The position numbers and the translations under genes are program-made. The notes below the pieces were generated by a model. That model searched no databases, was not told the DNA's origin, and saw only the letters and a program-made list of their open reading frames with translations. From Candidatus Magasanikiibacteriota bacterium (GTDB lineage: Bacteria > Patescibacteriota > Patescibacteriia > Magasanikbacterales > UBA922): DNA of 36,253 nucleotides. The stretch spans positions 1 through 36,253 of the forward strand of contig CAILTG010000087.1 in NCBI GenBank assembly GCA_903837125.1, written 5' to 3'. Below are positions 3,051-28,852 of the stretch, one piece after another. Position 1 is the first letter of the stretch; the number at the start of each line of letters is the position of its first letter.

Positions 3051-4895
3051 CTACGCCACACTCTTTTTAACATCCCCCATTATCCTTACAAATTCTTCCT
3101 GCTCTACCGTCTCTTTCTCTAACAACTCTTTCACCATTTCATCCATTTGTGCACGATGTTCAGTAATAATTCTTTCTGCGGTCTTTTTACTATCTTCTAA
3201 TAAACGATTTATTTCTGCATCAATAGTTTCGGCTGTTTTTTCGGAATAATTTTTCTTCTCATGAATTTCTTGTGCCAAGAAAATCAATTCTTCATTGTCG
3301 CCATAAGCACGTGGCCCAAGTTTGTCACTCATACCATAACGCATAATCATACTAGTTACCATTTGGGTGGCTTGTTTTAAATCATTTGAAGGGCCAGTAG
3401 ACAACTGTTCATCTCCATAAACTAAACGCTCTGTCACATAACCTCCAAGTGTCATAGCTAATTCATCTTTAAATTTTGCTAATGTTTTGTAGCGCACATC
3501 AGTTTCTGGCATAGAAAGTGTATAACCACCAGCCAAACCACGGCCAATTATTGATACTTTACGAATAGAATCACAATTTGGTAAAAAATGCCCCACTATT
3601 GCGTGTCCAGCTTCGTGATAAGCAGTCATTTCTTTGTCTTTAATGGTCATTACCCGAGATTTTTTCTGAGGCCCGAGCATTACTTTTTCAATACTTTCCA
3701 ATACTTCTATTTCAGTAATTTGTTTTTTATTACTGCGTACGGCCAAAATTGCGGCTTCATTCAAAAGATTGGCTAAATCCGCACCAGAAAAACCTGGCGT
3801 TCTCTCGGCCAATTTACGAATTGAAACATCTTTAGCAATTGGCTTGCCTTTAGCATGCACTTTTAAAATTTCTTCACGATCAGCAATATCGGGCAAATCA
3901 ATTACTACTCGACGATCAAAACGCCCAGGACGAAGCAGAGCTGAATCTAAAACATCGGGACGATTGGTAGCCGCTATCACAATTACACCCAAATTAGGAT
4001 CAAAACCATCCATTTCCACCAATATTTGATTTAAAGTTTGTTCACGTTCATCATGTGATCCGCCAAGACCAGAACCACGTTTACGACCAACAGCATCTAT
4101 TTCATCAATAAAAATAATAGCAGGTGCTGCTTTTTTAGCTTTCGTAAATAAATCACGCACACGAGAAGCACCAACACCCACAAACATTTCCACAAATTCT
4201 GAACCACTAATATGGAAAAATGGTACATTGGCTTCTCCAGCCACAGCTTTGGCCAACAAAGTTTTTCCAGTTCCCGGTGAACCCATGAGCAACACTCCTT
4301 TAGGAATTTTAGCACCCATTTCAGTAAATTTTTTGGGATCTTTCAAAAAATCCACCACTTCTTCCAGTTCTTCTTTAGCTTCTTTGGCTCCAGCCACATC
4401 CTTAAAAGTTTTTTTGTCTTTTTCTTCAGGTTTCACCTCACGCGCGCCAGACTGACCAAAACCCATAGCTCGATTATTTACGCCCTGCACCTGCCGAGTC
4501 ATAAAATAAATAATCAAAATAATTACCAGCATGGGAATAAGTATGGGCAAAAGTTGTTTTAGCCAAAAAGACCAACCTGATTCTTGTTTGATAATTAAAT
4601 CCACTTGGCTTAATTTATCCGGAGCCACACTAAAATTAGACATTAATTCAGAAAAAGATTGGGTGGATTCTTTTTGCGTTTGTTGTGGTTTGGCTTTATC
4701 ATCTTTTAAGATTATGTCTAAATTGTCTCCGTTAACCGTAACACTTTTGACTTGACCAGCATTAATTTCTTGCACCATTTTACTAACACCAATTTGCTCT
4801 GGTCCTTCTTTAGTTAAAGGTGAAAAACTTAATAATCCTGCTATTAACAGCAAAGCCAAAAAAATAATAATAAAATTTTTAACTAGATTTTTCAT
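3051..4895 (-). CDS. ftsH: ATP-dependent zinc metalloprotease FtsH
   Basis: 614 aa; two N-terminal TM segments, AAA Walker [12 protein letters not shown] region, HEAGH. Confidence 0.97.
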
Positions 4896-14312: not shown

Positions 14313-14340
14313 AGACGCGCCACGGCGCGTCTTTATTTAT
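14313..14340. terminator. bidirectional terminator
   Basis: AAAAGACGCGCCACGGCGCGTCTTTAT. Confidence 0.65.
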
Positions 14341-14846
14341 TAATTTTTAACTTGTTTTATCATCTCTTCTACCATTTCCTCGGCTTTTTGTTGCATTTCG
14401 GCAGATGACAGACCAACACCAACACCATTTTTTCCCGCCACAGCGGGATCCCGCTCGCTGCGGGATAACTCCTTTACTTGTTCACGAATTAAATCACCAC
14501 GCATTTTTTCTAATTCATCGCCATAATCTCTAATTTTTTTCTTCAATTCTTCAACTCTTTTTTTATCTTGTTTTACCGAGTCAACATCATCATTTTGAGC
14601 CAGCTGTAATTGTTGACGCAACTGACGAATAGCCAATAACACACTTTGCATGTGTAAGACAATATTTTGCATTTGCTTTTTACCCTGCCTTACTTCTTTA
14701 ACAATAATATCAGCCCGCTCCATAGCTGCCCCAGCCTTTAATTCATTATCTACTTCACCTTCCTTACTTTCTCTATTTTCAGCAGCCGCTTCCGCAGCTT
14801 CACGCGAATGCCTGCCAAATTCTGCTTGTTGGGTTTCTAAAGACAT
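14340..14846 (-). CDS. coiled-coil-rich hypothetical protein
   Basis: 168 aa, heptad-like K/E/Q/L pattern. Confidence 0.6.
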   Translation of the reverse strand: MSLETQQAEFGRHSREAAEAAAENRESKEGEVDNELKAGAAMERADIIVKEVRQGKKQMQNIVLHMQSVLLAIRQLRQQLQLAQNDDVDSVKQDKKRVEELKKKIRDYGDELEKMRGDLIREQVKELSRSERDPAVAGKNGVGVGLSSAEMQQKAEEMVEEMIKQVKN

Positions 14847-15172: not shown

Positions 15173-18100
15173 CTAACTTAGCAATACCTTTATACCCGTA
15201 CTGGCCAATTTGGCCAATCTGCCCCAATTTTTTGGTTTTAATAAATCAGCAGAAAACAAATCTTCTAAATGATGCCCACCGGTAGGCAAAGCTTTAAGCA
15301 AATAACGTAAACCAGGCGCAGGCTTTACAAAAGACAAAATTTGAAAAGAAATTTGCGAAACTTTTTCCGCAAGCAAACCATCAGATTCAAGAATGAGTTT
15401 TAAAGTTTGGACTAATTTTGCTCGTTTTTCAACATCTATACTTGTCTCGGACATCTCTAAAATACTGGCAGTTACTGATTCCGCATTTTTAAACAAAATA
15501 CCTTTAAAAAATTTCCTCACTTGTTTAACTTGATCAGGCATTTCACCCACTGCCCCAGTATCAATCAACGTTAAAGTTGCATGGTCTTTGTCCACAAAAA
15601 TATTGCCATCATGCATATCAGCATGAAAAACTCCTGTCTCAAACAATCCCTCAAAAAGCAGTTCACCAGCTTTCCGCGAAGCAAGCGCATAAAGCTTGGG
15701 ATCACTTTTGGCCAATTTTTCTAAAGATATACCTGAAGCAAATTTTTCAATCAACATATCTATCGTGGCCTTTAAAACTTCTGGCACCTTCACTTGCCAT
15801 TCTCCTACCTCAGTGGGCAAACTGGCCCGCAAAGTATTAGCTCTTTTAGCTTCCAACTCAAAATCTACTTCATCATTCAATATGGCTCTTAATTCACCCA
15901 ATAAATTTTCCGGCACTTCTTTTCCGTGCCTACGCAACAAGTCAAAAATTTCTCCCACCACTTTTAAATCATGCTCTAAATATTTATAAGTTGGCCGCCG
16001 CGCTTTCATTACTTCCTTTTCTCTACCTCTTTTAAGCTCATGCACCTGCCCCATAGAACCAGTTGATAACATTTTACCTATCTTGGTTGTTTCCTCTGCA
16101 CCTGCTGAATTTTCATAAATTTGTGCCACTCCCAATTTGCTAAAAGGTGTTACTCCATCTTTAAGACGTGACAATTTTTCTTTGAGCTTAACAGACATTA
16201 CTGTTTTACCTTCGGCAAAGGGCATATGTTTGCTTTGTGATAATATTTGCCCCAATTTTACCCCCACAGCGCCAGATTGTTCCAAAAACAAAGTTATAAA
16301 TTCTTCAAATTCCAATTTCTCTTTACCTTTTTCTTCCATGGCCAAATACAAAGCAGTAAACAACTGCGACCGACGTTCGGGAATTGATGATTTAAACACT
16401 TGAACAAAAACCTCTTTCAATAAACTCCCCTCATTTTCTCCTAAATCAAATTTACTATCAAAAATATTTACTAAAAATTTCTCCATCAATTCACCCTCTT
16501 CTTCATTGGTTGGTTCCAAAACTCCTTTATCAAAAATCATCAACTCATTCAATGTTTGTTTTTTTTCTTTTTTGGTCATGCGCGCAAACTTTTCTCTTAA
16601 ATTTCCAAAATCTAAACCATACAGTCCAGAAGAAATCATTAATTCTTCTGGTGGTTCTTCGTTAATTCCCAAAAGCCAATTAATGTATTCTATCCTCTTT
16701 TTGGGTTCCAAACGCTTCATTTCAGTACGAATTACCTCTACTGCCACCACTTGAATTTCCTTTTCTTCTCCACCACCACGCATAATACCCGCTGTAAATA
16801 AGTTGCCTATTTTATTAACTTCCTTGGGAGTAAATTCATATTTTTCCAAATATTCAGACAAATATTGATCTCGGGCCAAAGACGGGTCTGGTAAATATTT
16901 TTTAATTAAACGCAAATGATCATCTGCATCTTTTGGTTCAATTTTTGATAATACCATTCTGCCCAAAATAATTTTCATTTCCGTAGAATCCAAAACTGGT
17001 AAAATTTGATCAAATAAATGTCGTAAAATTAGCGGATCAATTTTTTCTAATAATTTTTCACTAGGAAAATCCAAAGTATCTATAAATGAAACAAAAGCAG
17101 GCATTTCTTGGGCGTAAAGAGCTTTAAAGCCTAAATCTTCTATATGATCTGCCAAATCAGTAATACTTGAATCAGGTTTTTTTTCTAATCGCTTCCAAAG
17201 TTCTAATTTTAAACTTCTAATAGCCAAATAGTCCCTAAATTCATTGGTTGGCAATGTTGAGTTAATTTTGGCCAAATTCAACTCCAAACTTTTACTTTGA
17301 TCACAAAAATACTCCGGATTTCCACGATATAATTTCAAAACAGCCAATTGATATCCTTCTAACTGAAAAGAATAGGCACAATCATCACTTATCAATTCAC
17401 CTGATTCTTTCAATCTCACATACCTCTCTTTACAACCCTCAGCCAGCGCAGGTAATTCATCTTCAAGTTGTGTAGCCATCCTCATCATTTCGCCAACATT
17501 CAAACTATCATGTCCATCATGATAACCGCGATTTCTTAATTTACTCCATTTATAAAAATAATCCTTAATTGATTCAAACAATTCTTGGCTTGAACCATTT
17601 CTAATCCACCACTCATATAACAAATCATCTCTAAACTCAGAAGCTGGAAAATTTTCAGTTAAATCATTAATATTTAAATCTAAATCTTTAAAAATTTTCT
17701 TTAAGTTTTCATGTTCAGTATAACCCCAATAAGTGCGGTCACTATTAGCAGATAAAAAATTATTTAATTCATCATTATTTATTATTTTGGCAATTCTTTT
17801 TACTCCACTAACAATAATACTGTCTTTAATTTTTTCATACCCCATACTTTTCTTATTTTTTTCCTTTTTTTCCAAATTTTCATAAATAGCTGATAAGTAA
17901 TCAAATAATTTTTTTCTTACTTCCCAACCAATATTTTCATCCTCCATTATATTACTTAAATCTTCATGGGATACTTTGGCACCTAAATCCAAAACCAAAT
18001 AAACACAATCTATTGATTCTATTCCTAGTCTCACTGCATGAGCTCTTAAAGCTGTTTCATGCCAAGAACCTGAATCAAAAAAAGTTTCTTTAGACAAACT

Positions 18101-20605
18101 TCTGTCCAAAGAACTATAAAAAATTTCCCGCTCCGGTAAATTACGTTTAGCATTAGAAACAAATTTATCAATAATTTTCTTGGTAATTTGTTCATCAAAA
18201 CCATCGGCCAAAATTTTTTCAATCATTCTTTCGGATGTCTCTTGGCTCATTTTTGCTCCCCACTCAACCTCTCCAGCTTCACCATAAACTTTTAAAAGTG
18301 TTTCATAAAAATCATTCTCACTTTTACCATAGGTTAACATTGTTTGGCACAATTCAATATATTTTAAACGCAAGGCTCTTAATTCAATTTCTTTGGTTCC
18401 CTGATTAAGTTGTTCTTGATAATAACCAAAAAAAGATTCTGGAGCAAAATGTCCGTTAGATTTTTTTAACATTTCCAAACAGCCTGGGCCGGAAATATTA
18501 GAAGCTGTAAGCTCCATCCTTTTTTTTAATTCGTCTACTGGCTCGTCCTCTTGTGTAAAAAAATATTCCTGATTCTGAAAAATTGAAGTTAAACTTTTAG
18601 GCAAAAGGAAATAAGGTTGTTCTTTTACCATCTCACCAAAATTTATATTAAGTTGTTTAACCAAAAAAGTTAATCTAGTTGTTAACTTAATAAGCTGAGG
18701 CAAATATTCAACTGGAATAATTATTCGCTTATCATAAGTATCCCCTTCAGTAACTAATTTCAAAATATTAGATTTTACCTCATCTGGTATCTCAGCCGGC
18801 AATCCTGTTTTAAGTGAATTATATAGTAATTCTTGTAATTTATTTCTTAATTCTACTGAATTTGCGTTAATTATTTTTTTTAATTTTTTATTTAAATCTT
18901 CATTATCAAAAACCAGGTTATCCTCAAAATTATTTTTCAACAAATAGCTAACAAAATCATGACCAGCCTTTTGCCTATCTTCAGCCGTTTCCATTTTTGC
19001 AGGTGCTGTACCACGACCATAGGATTTTCTGCCCCAAACTTTCATGGCCATGGCTATTAATTTAGTTTCTCGCTCTGGCAAGGTCTCACCGCTTAACCAC
19101 CTTTCCGACAATTCTTTAACTTCCGGTGTAATTTGAGAGGTGTTAAAACTTTCAGATTTTTTACTGCTATAAGTTCTAACTGAAAAACTTTTTGCCTCTA
19201 ACAATATATCCACGCCATCTTTTACAAAATCATCCTCAGCGGTTGTTAATTCCACCCTTCCAGAAACATGTTTAGACCAATCCACCAACCAAGCATCTTC
19301 ATGAGTTTGTAAAATATTTTCACCTACTTCGTTACGAGTGGTAAAATCAAATTCCTCTAAATCTTGTCTATTTTTAAATAATTTTGACTCCAATTCAATT
19401 AACTCAACTTCTTCACCACCGGTTAAGTTGGATTCACTTTTCTTCTTTTTTAATTCAACCACCCTGGCCTCATTTTCTTCTAGTTTAGCTTTTTCTTTCA
19501 AATAGGCAATCTCACACTTTTTTCCCAATTCTAAAATATGAGCAAAAAAATAATGTTTAAAAGAATCATTTTTTGCCACTTCAGAAAATAACTTAAATAA
19601 ATTCATTTCTTCAAACAATCTGGCGTCAAGATTAAGTGCCTGAAAATCCAGACCGGCAGTCTGCAAGGCCCCCAACAACTCATCAGTATTTTTACCTTTA
19701 CTCAAGCTTAAAAACTCCTGAAATGCTTTATCACTTTTTGACATGGCTTCAACTTCAAATTCCCAAGCAGGATCTTTTTTATCTAATCCTAAAAGAGACA
19801 AATCCTCGTTTGACAATCTCTGGGACACTTCCACCAATCTACTCTGACTGGCAGGATGGGTTAAAGAATAGGGAATATCACCACCAAGAGATTTGAAAAA
19901 CATTTCAATTTCTTGTTCAGCACGCGGGTTAAAACCCGCTTTATCCAATAAATCCACGGCTCGTAAATCTGCATCATATTCATCTTGACGTCGGGTAATT
20001 CTTTGTCTTTCAGGATCTCTTTGTTGCAAAATATGTCCCAACTCGTGGCCAATCACCGACGCCACATGTCCTTCGGTCAGCACTTCTCCGCGACTTTTAA
20101 AATATTCCTGTGCCTTTTTTATTAAACCAGAATAATAAAATATTTTTCTATTATATTGCCCTTCATGATAAATGCTCGGCCCCTCCTCCTTAAATTTTTC
20201 ATCAACATCTTTTTCATCAATCAAATATACAAAAGCATTGATAACTTCACTATTAATAGCCACAAGCTTAATTTGTCCTTTAAAACCAGCGGCTTTTGCC
20301 AAGCGATCAGTTAGCTCCTGTATTTTTTGGAGCATGGCCTCATTTTGTTCCAAACCAATTTGCTCGGTAAAAATCTGCTCAGCACCGTCTTCCAATCTGT
20401 GGTATCCAGCTTGGGCTCTTTTTTTATCACTATTTTTATATCTTTCTCTAGCCTCTCGGTACTTCTCCATTATTGAATCTTTTTCTGCTTTTAATTTTTC
20501 CAATAACACAACATGAGGTGGTCTGGTATCACCTTTTTTAACGGCTTCCTCACTTTCAACTGATTTTTCTACTGGTTCGTCGCCAGGTCTCTGAGGATCT
20601 GCCAT
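15173..20605 (-). CDS. giant multidomain protein: M48-like metallopeptidase, long helical middle, UbiB/ABC1-like kinase
   Basis: HELGH (20033-20047) with downstream DEYDADLRAVDLL; C-term GVKLGQILSQ, LSTGSMGQVHEL, HADMHDGNIFV, LIDTGAVG; start MADPQRPG at 20605. Confidence 0.85.
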   Translation of the reverse strand: MADPQRPGDEPVEKSVESEEAVKKGDTRPPHVVLLEKLKAEKDSIMEKYREARERYKNSDKKRAQAGYHRLEDGAEQIFTEQIGLEQNEAMLQKIQELTDRLAKAAGFKGQIKLVAINSEVINAFVYLIDEKDVDEKFKEEGPSIYHEGQYNRKIFYYSGLIKKAQEYFKSRGEVLTEGHVASVIGHELGHILQQRDPERQRITRRQDEYDADLRAVDLLDKAGFNPRAEQEIEMFFKSLGGDIPYSLTHPASQSRLVEVSQRLSNEDLSLLGLDKKDPAWEFEVEAMSKSDKAFQEFLSLSKGKNTDELLGALQTAGLDFQALNLDARLFEEMNLFKLFSEVAKNDSFKHYFFAHILELGKKCEIAYLKEKAKLEENEARVVELKKKKSESNLTGGEEVELIELESKLFKNRQDLEEFDFTTRNEVGENILQTHEDAWLVDWSKHVSGRVELTTAEDDFVKDGVDILLEAKSFSVRTYSSKKSESFNTSQITPEVKELSERWLSGETLPERETKLIAMAMKVWGRKSYGRGTAPAKMETAEDRQKAGHDFVSYLLKNNFEDNLVFDNEDLNKKLKKIINANSVELRNKLQELLYNSLKTGLPAEIPDEVKSNILKLVTEGDTYDKRIIIPVEYLPQLIKLTTRLTFLVKQLNINFGEMVKEQPYFLLPKSLTSIFQNQEYFFTQEDEPVDELKKRMELTASNISGPGCLEMLKKSNGHFAPESFFGYYQEQLNQGTKEIELRALRLKYIELCQTMLTYGKSENDFYETLLKVYGEAGEVEWGAKMSQETSERMIEKILADGFDEQITKKIIDKFVSNAKRNLPEREIFYSSLDRSLSKETFFDSGSWHETALRAHAVRLGIESIDCVYLVLDLGAKVSHEDLSNIMEDENIGWEVRKKLFDYLSAIYENLEKKEKNKKSMGYEKIKDSIIVSGVKRIAKIINNDELNNFLSANSDRTYWGYTEHENLKKIFKDLDLNINDLTENFPASEFRDDLLYEWWIRNGSSQELFESIKDYFYKWSKLRNRGYHDGHDSLNVGEMMRMATQLEDELPALAEGCKERYVRLKESGELISDDCAYSFQLEGYQLAVLKLYRGNPEYFCDQSKSLELNLAKINSTLPTNEFRDYLAIRSLKLELWKRLEKKPDSSITDLADHIEDLGFKALYAQEMPAFVSFIDTLDFPSEKLLEKIDPLILRHLFDQILPVLDSTEMKIILGRMVLSKIEPKDADDHLRLIKKYLPDPSLARDQYLSEYLEKYEFTPKEVNKIGNLFTAGIMRGGGEEKEIQVVAVEVIRTEMKRLEPKKRIEYINWLLGINEEPPEELMISSGLYGLDFGNLREKFARMTKKEKKQTLNELMIFDKGVLEPTNEEEGELMEKFLVNIFDSKFDLGENEGSLLKEVFVQVFKSSIPERRSQLFTALYLAMEEKGKEKLEFEEFITLFLEQSGAVGVKLGQILSQSKHMPFAEGKTVMSVKLKEKLSRLKDGVTPFSKLGVAQIYENSAGAEETTKIGKMLSTGSMGQVHELKRGREKEVMKARRPTYKYLEHDLKVVGEIFDLLRRHGKEVPENLLGELRAILNDEVDFELEAKRANTLRASLPTEVGEWQVKVPEVLKATIDMLIEKFASGISLEKLAKSDPKLYALASRKAGELLFEGLFETGVFHADMHDGNIFVDKDHATLTLIDTGAVGEMPDQVKQVRKFFKGILFKNAESVTASILEMSETSIDVEKRAKLVQTLKLILESDGLLAEKVSQISFQILSFVKPAPGLRYLLKALPTGGHHLEDLFSADLLKPKNWGRLAKLASTGIKVLLS

Positions 20606-20618
20606 ATAATATATTATA

Positions 20619-21215
20619 TTATTTTTTCCATTTAACTTCAACCACTCCGCTCTGCCAATTAATCCATCTGGCCAAAACAAACAAACAATCACTCAAACGA
20701 TTTAAATATTGTTTAATTTCTAGAGAGACTGAATATTTTTCACTCAACTTAATCATACATCTTTCAGCCCTTCGACAAACTGCTCGGGTTAAATAACTTT
20801 GGGCTGCAGCCAAATCGCCACCTGGCAAAATAAAATTTTTCAATTCTGGAAGATCGTTGGTCATTTCATCAATCCACTTTTCAAGCATTACTACATCTTT
20901 TTTCCCCAATTTAGGAACTTTTTTTACATTTGTCTGTAAAGTTGCCAAATTAGAGCCAACTACAAATAAATTATTTTGCACTTCAACAAGTTTAATTCTT
21001 ACTTCTGTGTAAGGATCAGCACAATCTTCACTCTCATGTTCATGTTCCTCTTCACAAACTACCCCTGCTAATTCTGCGACCAACAACCCTAAATTTGCGT
21101 TAAGTTCATCCACTTCCCCAATCGCTTCCATTTCTAAACAAGACTTATCCACGCGTTTTCCGTCAAGTGTACTGGTTTTACCTTTATCGCCGGTTTTAGT
21201 GTAAATTTTTGGCAT
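20619..21215 (-). CDS. cob(I)yrinic acid a,c-diamide adenosyltransferase, PduO type
   Basis: MPKIYTKTGDKGKTSTLDGKRVDK, FILPGGDLAAAQSYLTRAVCRRAER, YLNRLSDCLFVLARW. Confidence 0.92.
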   Translation of the reverse strand: MPKIYTKTGDKGKTSTLDGKRVDKSCLEMEAIGEVDELNANLGLLVAELAGVVCEEEHEHESEDCADPYTEVRIKLVEVQNNLFVVGSNLATLQTNVKKVPKLGKKDVVMLEKWIDEMTNDLPELKNFILPGGDLAAAQSYLTRAVCRRAERCMIKLSEKYSVSLEIKQYLNRLSDCLFVLARWINWQSGVVEVKWKK

Positions 21216-21403: not shown

Positions 21404-24400
21404 TTATGAGCACCCAAGTGACTCACCACAATTCAAACACTTATAACAACTGCCATTTCTTACAGTAATATGTCCACAAGTAGGACAAGCTGGAGCGTCT
21501 CCCATCATTTCTGAAAGTGCGGCGTCTGAAGCATTAATTGTTGACACTACTTTTTCTTCCAAAGTTGGCAAAGACGACTGCAAATCAGGCATTCTCTCTA
21601 CTTGAATAACGTTATTTCCTTCAACCAAATTCATACTTTCCTGTTTATTTTGCATTTCCGCAAGTTTAGCTAAATTCTCAAATTTATTTTTTTGAATTCC
21701 TTTAGGTTTTACTTGTACAAAATCTGTACGGCCTAAATATTCCATGCCAAGTACCCGAAAAACAAAGTCAATCACTGAGGTACAATTTTTAACATTAGGA
21801 TGATCAGTAAAACCGGCTGGATCAAAACGAGTGAAAGTAAATTTCTCTACATATTTTTCCAAAGGTATACCATACTGCAAACCAAGTGACACCGAAATAG
21901 CAAACAAATTCAACATGGAACGAAAAGCTGCACCTTCTTTATACATATCAATAAAAATCTCCGCCACGCGTCCATCTGGATATTCGCCAGTACGCAACCA
22001 TACTTTTTGTTGGCCAATGCGCGCGGAAATAGTTATACCGCTCCGCTTGGCTGGCAATTTACGTTTTTCACCATGCACATAAATTCTTTTTTCCGTAACT
22101 GAACCATCTTGGTTATAACTTTCCATAGGTTTAGCTGCGCCATTATACTGCTGAAAAATTTCAGCTGCTCTAGCCATGGCCGCTGACATATCTGAAACAT
22201 TTACAAAGTCCAGTCCATGATTTTCTGGGTTGGCAGTCGGTTCTTCTTTGTTAATAATATTTTCTATTCCAGTTTTTATTTCAGTTTTAGTCTCAATCTT
22301 AATCTCAATCTTCTCTTCTTTTTTAACCTCGCTTTTTTCATCACCTTTATTTTTAGAACTAGTTGAGAGCGGTTGACTTAATTTACAACCATCACGATAC
22401 AAAGCCACGGCTTTTAAACCCAAACGCCAACCCTCTTTATAAGCATATTTAACTTCTTCTAAAGTAGCTTCATTAGGCATATTGATAGTTTTGGAAATAG
22501 CCCCAGAAAGAAAGGGTTGTACTGCGGCCATCATTCTAATATGCCCTAAATAATGAATAAATCTACGGCCTTTTTTACCACATTTATTGGCGCAATCAAA
22601 AACTGGGTAATGTTCTATTTTTAGATACGGGGCGCCTTCAATAGTCATAGCGCCACAAGTATAATCATTAGCCTCCATAATTTGTTCATCAGAAAAACCC
22701 ATAGCCCGAAGCATATTAAAATTAGGGTCATTATATTCTTCAGCTTTAAAACCCGCACGCGTTAAACATTCTTCTCCTAAAGTCCAAACATTAAATGCAA
22801 ATTTAATATCAAAAGCGCCTTTAAGAGCTTTGTTAACATTTTGAATATCACCATCATTAAAACCTTTACTCTTTAAAGTTTGAGTATTAATTTGAGGAGC
22901 GGTAGTAATATCAGCAGTGCCTTGCATATAATCCAAAATCGCCCGAGCTTCTAGTTCATTATAGCCCAAACTTTTTAAAGCATTAGGCACACCTTCATTA
23001 ACAATTCTAAAATATCCCCCACCAGCTAATTTCTTAAATTTAACTAAAGCAAAATCAGGTTCTACACCTGTTGTGGCACAGTCCATAAGTAAACCAATGG
23101 TTCCGGTTGGTGCGAGTAAGGTGGTTTGAGCATTTCTAAATCCAAATTTTTCTCCCCAACTCAGTGCTTCATTCCACAATTCTCTGGCCGCGGTTAATAG
23201 ATAAGCTGGAGCATGTTCTGGTTTAATACCAACTGGCGTAATAGTTAATTTTTCATATTCATTTACTGGCGCATTAAAAGCTGCCCGACGGTGATTTCTA
23301 ATTACTCGCAACATCTCCGGACGATTCATTTCAAATTTAGGGAAAGTTCCTAAAAACTTAGCCATTTCCGCGCTGGCATGATAACTTTCAGCCGTCATAA
23401 TAGCAGTAATTGACCCAGCAAAAGCATAAGCTTCTTCTGATTCATAAGGAATACCGAGCATCATTAAAACTGAACCTAAGTTGGCATAACCCAAACCCAA
23501 AGTCCGAAAATCATAACTACCTTGAGCAATTTCTTTAGAAGGAAATTGAGCCATTAATACTGAAATTTCCAAAACCACAGTCCATAATCTTACGGCATGC
23601 TTATAACCTTCCACATCAATAGTTTGTGCTTCATTATTAAAAAACTGAGCTAAATTTAAAGAAGCTAAATTACAAGCTGTATTATCAATAAACATGTACT
23701 CTGAGCAAGGATTACTGGCATTGATGCGCCCTGATTCTGGACAAGTGTGCCATTCATTAATATTACCGTCATACTGCACTCCTGGATCAGCACAAGCCCA
23801 AGCAGCATAAGCAATTTTATTCCATAAATCACGAGCCTTAAAAGTTTTACAAATTGTGCCATCCACCCGCCAAGTCAAATTCCAAGAAGCATCATTTTCT
23901 ACTGCTTCCATAAATTTATGCGGCACACGTACTGAATTATTAGAATTTTGTCCGGCCACAGTTTGGTAAGCTTCACCCTCATAGTCTGAAGGATAACCTG
24001 CAGCAATTAAAGCTGCCACTTTTTTTTCTTCTTTGGCTTTCCAATCAATAAAAACTTCAATATCCGGATGATCCAAATCCAAAATCACCATTTTGGCGGC
24101 ACGTCTAGTAGTACCACCAGATTTTATGGCGCCAGCTGCCCGGTCACCAATTCGTAACCAACTCATTAATCCTGAAGATTTTCCACCACCAGACAAAGGT
24201 TCACCATTGCCGCGAAGCCCAGAAAAATTAGTACCCGTACCAGAACCATATTTAAATAACCTAGCTTCACGCACCCACAAATCCATAATTCCACCTTCAT
24301 TCACCAAATCATCAGAAACTGATTGAATAAAACAAGCGTGCGGTTGCGGGTGGGTGTAAGCATCTTTAGCCCGAGTCATTACTCCAGTATCAGGATCTAC

Positions 24401-24964
24401 ATAATAATGCCCCTGCGAAGTACTATTAATTCCATAAGCCCAATTCAATCCTGTGTTAAACCACTGTGGAGAATTAGGAGCGGCCATTTGTTTGAGCAGC
24501 ATTACCACTAATTCATCATAAAAAATTTGGGCATCCTGAACACTCGCAAAATAACCATATCTCTCCCCCCAATAACGCCAAGTACCAGCCAATCGATGAA
24601 CAATTTGTTTAGCGCTTTTTTCAGGTCCAAGCACAGTAGACCCGTCGCTATTTTTCTTAATTGTTCCGTCTTCATGATATTGAGGGACTCCAGTTTTACG
24701 AAAATATTTTTGAGCCAAGATATCAGTAGCCACTTGTGACCAACTTTTAGGAATTTCAATATCCTTCATTTCAAACACTACTGTGCCATCTGGTTCACGG
24801 ATTACCGAAGTGCGCTTTTCATATTCCACCAAATCAAAAGAACTTTTACCATCAATGCTAAACAGGCGCTTGAAACGAAGGCCGTTTTCATTATAAATAA
24901 AATCAACCTTTTCAGACTGCCCTAAGTGTAACTCGGACACAAACTTTGAATCTGTTGGACCCAT
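21404..24964 (-). CDS. nrdJ: adenosylcobalamin-dependent (class II) ribonucleoside-diphosphate reductase
   Basis: 1186 aa; PNSPQWFNTGLNWAYG, NPCSEYMFIDNTACNLASLNL, LLAPTGTIGLLMDC, C-term CPTCGHITVRNGSCYKCLNCGESLGCS. Confidence 0.95.
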   Translation of the reverse strand: MGPTDSKFVSELHLGQSEKVDFIYNENGLRFKRLFSIDGKSSFDLVEYEKRTSVIREPDGTVVFEMKDIEIPKSWSQVATDILAQKYFRKTGVPQYHEDGTIKKNSDGSTVLGPEKSAKQIVHRLAGTWRYWGERYGYFASVQDAQIFYDELVVMLLKQMAAPNSPQWFNTGLNWAYGINSTSQGHYYVDPDTGVMTRAKDAYTHPQPHACFIQSVSDDLVNEGGIMDLWVREARLFKYGSGTGTNFSGLRGNGEPLSGGGKSSGLMSWLRIGDRAAGAIKSGGTTRRAAKMVILDLDHPDIEVFIDWKAKEEKKVAALIAAGYPSDYEGEAYQTVAGQNSNNSVRVPHKFMEAVENDASWNLTWRVDGTICKTFKARDLWNKIAYAAWACADPGVQYDGNINEWHTCPESGRINASNPCSEYMFIDNTACNLASLNLAQFFNNEAQTIDVEGYKHAVRLWTVVLEISVLMAQFPSKEIAQGSYDFRTLGLGYANLGSVLMMLGIPYESEEAYAFAGSITAIMTAESYHASAEMAKFLGTFPKFEMNRPEMLRVIRNHRRAAFNAPVNEYEKLTITPVGIKPEHAPAYLLTAARELWNEALSWGEKFGFRNAQTTLLAPTGTIGLLMDCATTGVEPDFALVKFKKLAGGGYFRIVNEGVPNALKSLGYNELEARAILDYMQGTADITTAPQINTQTLKSKGFNDGDIQNVNKALKGAFDIKFAFNVWTLGEECLTRAGFKAEEYNDPNFNMLRAMGFSDEQIMEANDYTCGAMTIEGAPYLKIEHYPVFDCANKCGKKGRRFIHYLGHIRMMAAVQPFLSGAISKTINMPNEATLEEVKYAYKEGWRLGLKAVALYRDGCKLSQPLSTSSKNKGDEKSEVKKEEKIEIKIETKTEIKTGIENIINKEEPTANPENHGLDFVNVSDMSAAMARAAEIFQQYNGAAKPMESYNQDGSVTEKRIYVHGEKRKLPAKRSGITISARIGQQKVWLRTGEYPDGRVAEIFIDMYKEGAAFRSMLNLFAISVSLGLQYGIPLEKYVEKFTFTRFDPAGFTDHPNVKNCTSVIDFVFRVLGMEYLGRTDFVQVKPKGIQKNKFENLAKLAEMQNKQESMNLVEGNNVIQVERMPDLQSSLPTLEEKVVSTINASDAALSEMMGDAPACPTCGHITVRNGSCYKCLNCGESLGCS

Positions 24965-27848: not shown

Positions 27849-28784
27849 TCATTTTATCTCTTGTAATAACCATTTAATACTACTCCCATAAACCCTTATA
27901 CAATACCAATGCCACTTATTTCTTCGACCTTCATCAGCCTGACTCAAAGCATTAAAATACAAACGTCTATTTTGATATAAAAATAAAATCGGTGGATAAA
28001 CAAACTGCCATAGCATCCAATTAAACAGTAAACGCCCAATTCTACCATTACCATCCTCAAACGGATGAATACTTTCAAAACGTTGATGAAAATCCGCGGC
28101 CAGAGATAAGGGATGGCACCCACTTTTTTTGTTCTCATGCCACCAATCTAATAAATTTTTCATTTCTCGTCTTACTTGTCCAGCCGGAGTAGTTGTTTTA
28201 TTATTTACTATAATATTAACCTTTTTATAACCGGTATTTATTCCCAGTCCATCAACCAACAATTTATGTAAGTTAATTATGGTGTGCTGATTTAAAATAA
28301 ATTTATTATTTCTTACCAAATTAAAAGCCAAAATAGAATTTTTTACCTCCTTTACTTCTCTTTTTTCCACTGATTTGTTTATTAATTGTTTTTTAACAAT
28401 AGCATTAACCTCTGCTTGGTTCAGTTTACTACCCTCAATCGCGTTGGATTCAAAAATAAACTGCACAGCGTAGCGAGTCCATAATTGGTCTTTTTTAAAA
28501 TCTGATAATCCCAAAAATTTATATTTCCAATCCAGGCGCAAACTTTCTAGTTTCATTATTTGCTCGGCATTAAAAATTTTCTCCAACCTAAAAATTTTGT
28601 TTACATTTTTTTTAATTACTTCTTTTTCTTTTTCAGCCAAAAGCAAATTTTGATCCGCTAAATTATTAGGGTCCTTTTTACCTAGGTAAACCTGTATTTT
28701 CTTATATTTTCCATTTATCAAAATCCTTTCAACAAGGTAAAAATATGGCTTATTCTTGATAATTTTCTTGTATATTTTGGGCAT
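27849..28784 (-). CDS. Fic-domain protein (probable AMPylase)
   Basis: [12 protein letters not shown]; inhibitory-type SNAIEG. Confidence 0.93.
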
Positions 28785-28852
28785 AAAAGTTAGGGTCACA
28801 ATTTATGTACTTATTATATCAATATAAACATAGTCTGTCAACAGAAAACAAA

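Follow-up and report, generated by a model that had tools for sequence, protein, structure and literature searches.

A family of giant proteins linking an M48 peptidase to an ABC1/UbiB kinase-like domain in Patescibacteria

The window analysed here, a stretch of 36,253 nucleotides from a Candidatus Magasanikiibacteriota bacterium (contig CAILTG010000087.1), encodes a giant protein in which an M48 zinc-peptidase domain and an ABC1/UbiB kinase-like domain are set apart by about 900 helical residues that belong to no family. Such giants form a family of thin, scattered occurrence in the phylum; some members are encoded by two adjacent genes, and the window's own genome carries a second giant. Judged by the domain order in all 19 complete loci, the splits in two trees, the lack of a C-terminal hairpin and the lack of UbiA, the giant is an old, co-inherited protease-kinase unit and not a UbiB of the quinone pathway. 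In the reading that we hold with moderate confidence, it would be a soluble unit, either a single chain or two linked gene products, whose M48 zinc protease cooperates with its ABC1/UbiB kinase-like ATPase, the ABC1 domain controlling the protease through ATP and the middle serving as a scaffold. Open-access full texts yielded nothing relevant on an M48/ABC1 pairing in Patescibacteria, and the family is apparently undescribed so far, which we state provisionally. Both component families are known, so what is new is how they are arranged and linked, and not their folds.

A preliminary description of this DNA, made from the letters alone, had proposed one protein of ~1.8k residues with an M48-like N terminus and a UbiB/ABC1-like C terminus. 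The gene is uninterrupted, with no internal stop across its 1810 codons, and lies on the minus strand, which that description had not given. The full open-reading frame spans 15173-20692 with a GTG start, and the ATG at 20605, 13 nt past the stop of the preceding PduO gene, is the likely start codon. Pfam Peptidase_M48 (PF01435) matched with 46.9 bits (E = 3.7e-12) in two stretches, the better covering residues 93-195, and ABC1 (PF03109) matched with 97.7 bits (E = 7.9e-28), both above the curated cut-offs of 20.3 and 22.9 bits, respectively, while no convincing Pfam family was found between the two domains. The nearest solved structures by sequence are of the ABC1 family (5yjz, 7cy2), over residues 1442-1691. 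Ahead of the kinase-like domain lies a helical segment of ~200 residues that the giants have in common and that the A2 profile does not match in stand-alone UbiB. No segment of the window protein exceeds a hydropathy of 1.6, none reaches the transmembrane threshold, and no signal peptide is apparent. Given the lack of a transmembrane-grade hydrophobic stretch and the charged N terminus, the protein is probably cytoplasmic or membrane-peripheral, and it is best read as a soluble or membrane-peripheral M48 protease.

Both sets of active-site motifs are complete in the window protein (Table 1). In the M48 alignment, H187, E188 and H191, the E, Y and both D residues of EYDAD, and H250 and R256 past the zinc site are invariant in 11 relatives. 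All 19 complete loci carry HExxH; 17 of them also show a clear ExxAD-like motif for the third ligand, which in G766 and G481 is uncertain. In the ABC1 alignment, invariance in 14 relatives extends to K1450 and Q1453, to S1517, whose loop reads GSASIKQV or GAASIKQV in other giants, and to H1661, D1663, H1665, G1667 and N1668 of the catalytic loop. The ExD motif is also listed for COQ8A (PMC7877690). DTG does stand where DFG had been expected, as the preliminary description stated, but this is not peculiar to the window protein, since D-x-G with L, M, C, A, T or F at the middle position occurs across the family. In a divergent set of giants (L052, L129, L130 and L131), R-F/L-L-Q replaces KxGQ, GGGS replaces the nucleotide loop and DR(N/T/S) replaces DxG, so the ATP chemistry of their ABC1 domains may have changed. 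The fusion was correctly observed, and its interpretation as a protease joined to a UbiB-like kinase is supported by the profiles, by the complete motifs and by the relatives described below.

Table 1. Features of the giant gene and its neighbours in the window
Feature	Coordinates	Strand	Basis or comment
Single M48-ABC1 fusion gene, stop codon included	15173..20605	-	1810 aa
M48 zinc-peptidase domain, residues ~93-260	19826..20329	-	Pfam PF01435; alignment with relatives; low-confidence model
HELGH, residues 187-191	20033..20047	-	two zinc ligands and catalytic Glu
EYDAD, residues 209-213 (DEYDAD from 208)	19967..19981	-	M48 ExxAD motif; Glu209 = third zinc ligand
HPASQSR, residues 250-256	19838..19858	-	conserved H..R motif past zinc site
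Middle, residues ~270-1189, charged and helical	17039..19798	-	no known family; unalignable between subfamilies
Conserved helical pre-kinase segment, residues ~1205-1430	16316..16993	-	A2 profile positions 2-250
KLGQ, residues 1450-1453	16247..16258	-	UbiB-specific KxGQ motif
ABC1 kinase-like domain, residues 1482-1712	15470..16162	-	PF03109; 5yjz, 7cy2
GSMGQVH, residues 1516-1522	16040..16060	-	counterpart of A-rich nucleotide loop
Lys1534, counterpart of ATP-binding lysine	16004..16006	-	invariant in 14 relatives
EVD, residues 1579-1581, ExD motif	15863..15871	-	E1579 invariant in 14 relatives
HADMHDGN, residues 1661-1668, catalytic loop	15602..15625	-	motif
DTG, residues 1682-1684 (within IDTGAVG from 1681), metal-binding DxG	15554..15562	-	D1682 and G1684 invariant in 14 relatives
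PduO-type cobalamin adenosyltransferase	20619..21209	-	TIGR00636, 168.8 bits; 13 nt upstream of giant
nrdJ, B12-dependent ribonucleotide reductase	21404..24964	-	NCBIfam matches; TIGR02504, 590.7 bits
FtsH, gene separate from giant	3051-4895		

The middle of the protein had been described as charged and helical with no recognised family, and this picture persisted. AlphaFold, run on residues 1-700 and on residues 611-1810 with an eight-row alignment, gave models with mean pLDDT values of 46 and 45, respectively. They predicted the middle as helical at very low confidence (pLDDT mostly <50), added nothing beyond its helical character and were too poor for any contact between the two ends of the protein to be seen. 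Foldseek with the residues 1-700 model, at that mean pLDDT of 46, gave as its only sensible matches BepA and 3c37, both weak; the matches of the residues 611-1810 model, non-significant and to generic helical proteins, were set aside. Profiles of the middle regions, compared from one subfamily to the next, gave a match only between G000b, the second giant of the window's genome, and the Uhrbacteria B proteins described below, and we therefore make no claim of homology for the middles. In one close Uhrbacteria pair, the ABC1 half had dN/dS values of 0.10-0.21, whereas most segments elsewhere gave ~0.34-0.46 or were saturated, the zinc-site segment (0.44) changing at about the rate of the middle. 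In this pair, purifying selection was thus strongest in the ABC1 half, the middle changed faster but was still under purifying selection, and no sign of positive selection was seen there.

A search of genome contigs with the single window protein as query gave no match, and an order-level search gave one relative, G018, from the same family of genomes as the window. In G018, an M48 open-reading frame (751 aa) and an ABC1 open-reading frame (1639 aa) lie in different frames and share an overlap at nine consecutive G (L007 8076-8086). Since the single frame of G000b (2466 aa) aligns along both, a sequencing error in this homopolymer probably explains the break, although the run may instead be a phase-variable switch. 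A profile of the kinase half, built from two rows, found giant-type matches over nearly the whole or most of its length in ten of 381 genomes of the class, with two matches in the window's genome, and wider searches added further giants, both within this class and in other patescibacterial classes. By our own count, giants occur in 15 of 382 sampled genomes of the class (~4%), 11 of the main type and 4 divergent.

The preliminary description had proposed looking for the same architecture and synteny elsewhere; the architecture recurred while the neighbourhoods differed. The M48 domain precedes the ABC1 domain in all 19 complete loci, which come from 18 patescibacterial genomes of several classes; two further loci (G386 and G282) are cut by contig ends and stand outside this count. 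Candidatus Uhrbacteria and its close kin have the two-gene form: gene A (M48, ~920-1010 aa) is followed directly by gene B (ABC1, ~1410-1530 aa), the two overlapping by exactly 4 bases in two loci (L043 and L047) and abutting or overlapping by more in the other two-gene loci. One-gene giants are found in the window (1810 aa), in G000b, in G144 (1813 aa), G494 (1908 aa), G644 (1796 aa), G766 (1886 aa) and G481 (1607 aa), and in a more divergent group of 1458-1569 aa (G352, G033, G419 and G381). Pfam backs both domains in nearly all relatives; in G381 the ABC1 score of 17.8 bits falls short of the cut-off, though the family alignment supports the domain. No conserved neighbours were recognised by eye across the giant loci, where the neighbours are housekeeping genes (nrdJ, pduO, leuS, gyrA, purA and guaB) and not defence genes. 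In G212, two similar proteins in tandem (L134 958-3669 and 3736-6321) carry Ser/Thr-type protein-kinase motifs (HSDLKPGN or HTDLKPAN, with DFG), and a third similar frame, partial, comes after them.

Each domain also separates from its stand-alone kin. In the ABC1 tree, one branch (98/97) splits 17 giants from 22 stand-alone patescibacterial UbiB proteins, and in the M48 tree a branch (100/99) splits 19 giants from 9 HtpX proteins, including the HtpX of the window's own genome. The ABC1 and M48 trees both contain the pairs G144/G494, G644/G766 and G000b/G018, an agreement that joint inheritance of the two domains would predict. A single origin of the giants is likely, short of proven, because both trees are unrooted, have long branches in several rows and hold patescibacterial homologues only. 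G000b and G018 are placed between two-gene groups, with weak support, and more than one change between the one-gene and two-gene forms may therefore have occurred. A phage or plasmid origin was also looked for and is unsupported, the only matches there being to UbiB-type proteins.

In the window, nrdJ and the cobalamin adenosyltransferase gene precede the giant on the same strand, as had been noted, and the adenosyltransferase gene and the giant are likely on the same transcript. Downstream of the giant, 14340-14846 encodes a charged, coiled-coil-like protein of 168 aa without any NCBIfam match. Elsewhere in the window, 27849-28799 encodes a Fic-domain protein whose match to the NCBIfam protein adenylyltransferase Fic (E = 6e-11) is below the cut-off. 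The second giant of this genome lies in a single frame on contig C55 and is probably not contamination, because C55 and the window are alike in composition (tetranucleotide r = 0.98). Near it, on the same strand, is an 1830-aa protein (L051 723-6212) with only a weak nucleotidyltransferase match near its C terminus (DUF294, E = 0.0013). The two giants are the only ABC1 proteins of the genome, which has no stand-alone ABC1 and does have an ordinary HtpX. That no ubiquinone gene was visible in the window holds genome-wide as far as UbiA (PF01040) shows: no UbiA was found in the window's genome, in a search whose control was positive in 14 of 14 genomes.

The M48/ABC1 pair has been kept through deep divergence and through change between one-gene and two-gene forms, and by the Rosetta-stone argument this constant linkage suggests that both activities belong to a single process; it marks a functional association and does not show that one domain directly controls the other. 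In the model that we favour, the ABC1 domain would bind and hydrolyse ATP, probably when triggered by a lipid, a metabolite or a partner, and this ATP use would open, close or aim the M48 active site, with the fast-evolving helical middle acting as a scaffold that holds both ends or as a binder of substrates or partners. Here "kinase" may mean ATPase, because no trans protein-kinase activity has been demonstrated for UbiB, Coq8 or COQ8A, and the biochemical task of UbiB/ABC1 proteins, among the commonest microbial kinase-like proteins, is still disputed (PMC7263595). More tentatively, the giants of quinone-less Patescibacteria may be ATP-regulated proteases of a new type, with a zinc protease that would be switched or driven through a large, fast-evolving helical scaffold by an ABC1/UbiB kinase-like domain and not by an AAA+ ring; if true, this would be a second role for UbiB-type kinases. 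With UbiA absent from the genome, an ABC1 domain fused to a protease offers a handle on ABC1 roles outside quinone synthesis, and a gene of 5.4 kb is a large investment for a genome of 1.35 Mb.

The two domains could also cooperate without direct gating, in quality control at a lipid surface, where ABC1 would mobilise or sense a membrane lipid or isoprenoid and M48 would remove enzymes or damaged proteins. Plants provide a precedent: the M48 protease PGM48 occurs alongside ABC1K kinases in the plastoglobule core proteome and in one interaction cluster, and it degrades plastoglobule proteins such as CCD4 (PMC9725166; PMC12587418). UbiB proteins act on membrane-lipid processes (PMC8346625). We nevertheless regard this reading as rather unlikely, as the window protein has no apparent transmembrane segment or signal peptide, UbiA is absent from the genome and nothing in the sequence points to membrane binding. 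Improbable, too, is a conflict module directed against phages or competitors, in which the middle would sense an invader and the response would consist of ATP use and proteolysis. The patchy distribution, the fast-evolving middle and the lack of conserved neighbours, as of a self-contained unit, would suit such a role, yet PADLOC assigned no family to four giant members, the neighbours are housekeeping genes, the phage and plasmid searches returned only UbiB-type proteins and the middle is still under purifying selection. Joining for expression only, with the domains acting independently and their fusion or adjacency being neutral, would fit the persistence of both gene forms and a linker that cannot be aligned between subfamilies; we consider it quite improbable, because neutral adjacency should break over such distances, whereas the pair stays together in every complete locus despite unrelated neighbourhoods and each domain splits from its stand-alone kin. 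An artefact of assembly, raised in the preliminary description, or a chance fusion of two genes would be imaginable in a fragmented genome (101 contigs, 4.7% contamination), but both are ruled out for practical purposes by relatives with the same domain order in many independent genomes and by the second member on a contig of like composition.

Compared with known systems, the giant shares with UbiB/COQ8/ABC1 (ADCK) proteins the KxGQ motif, the serine of the nucleotide loop, the ATP-binding lysine, ExD, HxDxHxxN and DxG. It differs from the UbiB equivalog, the window protein scoring 120.5 bits against the TIGR01982 cut-off of 487.55, and from the UbiB family in its pre-kinase helical segment, its M48 partner and its UbiA-less host genome. 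Most stand-alone patescibacterial UbiB proteins end in one or two hydrophobic segments (a hairpin) that the giants lack, the sole hydrophobic segment noted among giants being a marginal, internal one in G264B. With M48 peptidases (HtpX, BepA and the Ste24/OMA1 group) the giant shares HExxH, the ExxAD third ligand and the H..R motif, and its N-terminal model bears a weak structural likeness to BepA and 3c37; in contrast to this group, it has no transmembrane segment or signal and is joined to ABC1. Its M48 domain forms a clade separate from HtpX, and the window protein falls below the BepA profile cut-off. Like FtsH, Lon and Clp, the giant joins an ATP-using domain to a protease in one chain or complex, but those systems use AAA+ unfoldases, whereas its ATP-binding part has a kinase fold. 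Plant plastoglobules likewise bring an M48 protease (PGM48) and ABC1K kinases together in one place (PMC9725166; PMC12587418), there as separate proteins on a plastid lipid droplet; the likeness to the giants is functional and suggests that the M48/ABC1 partnership of plastoglobules may have a bacterial counterpart.
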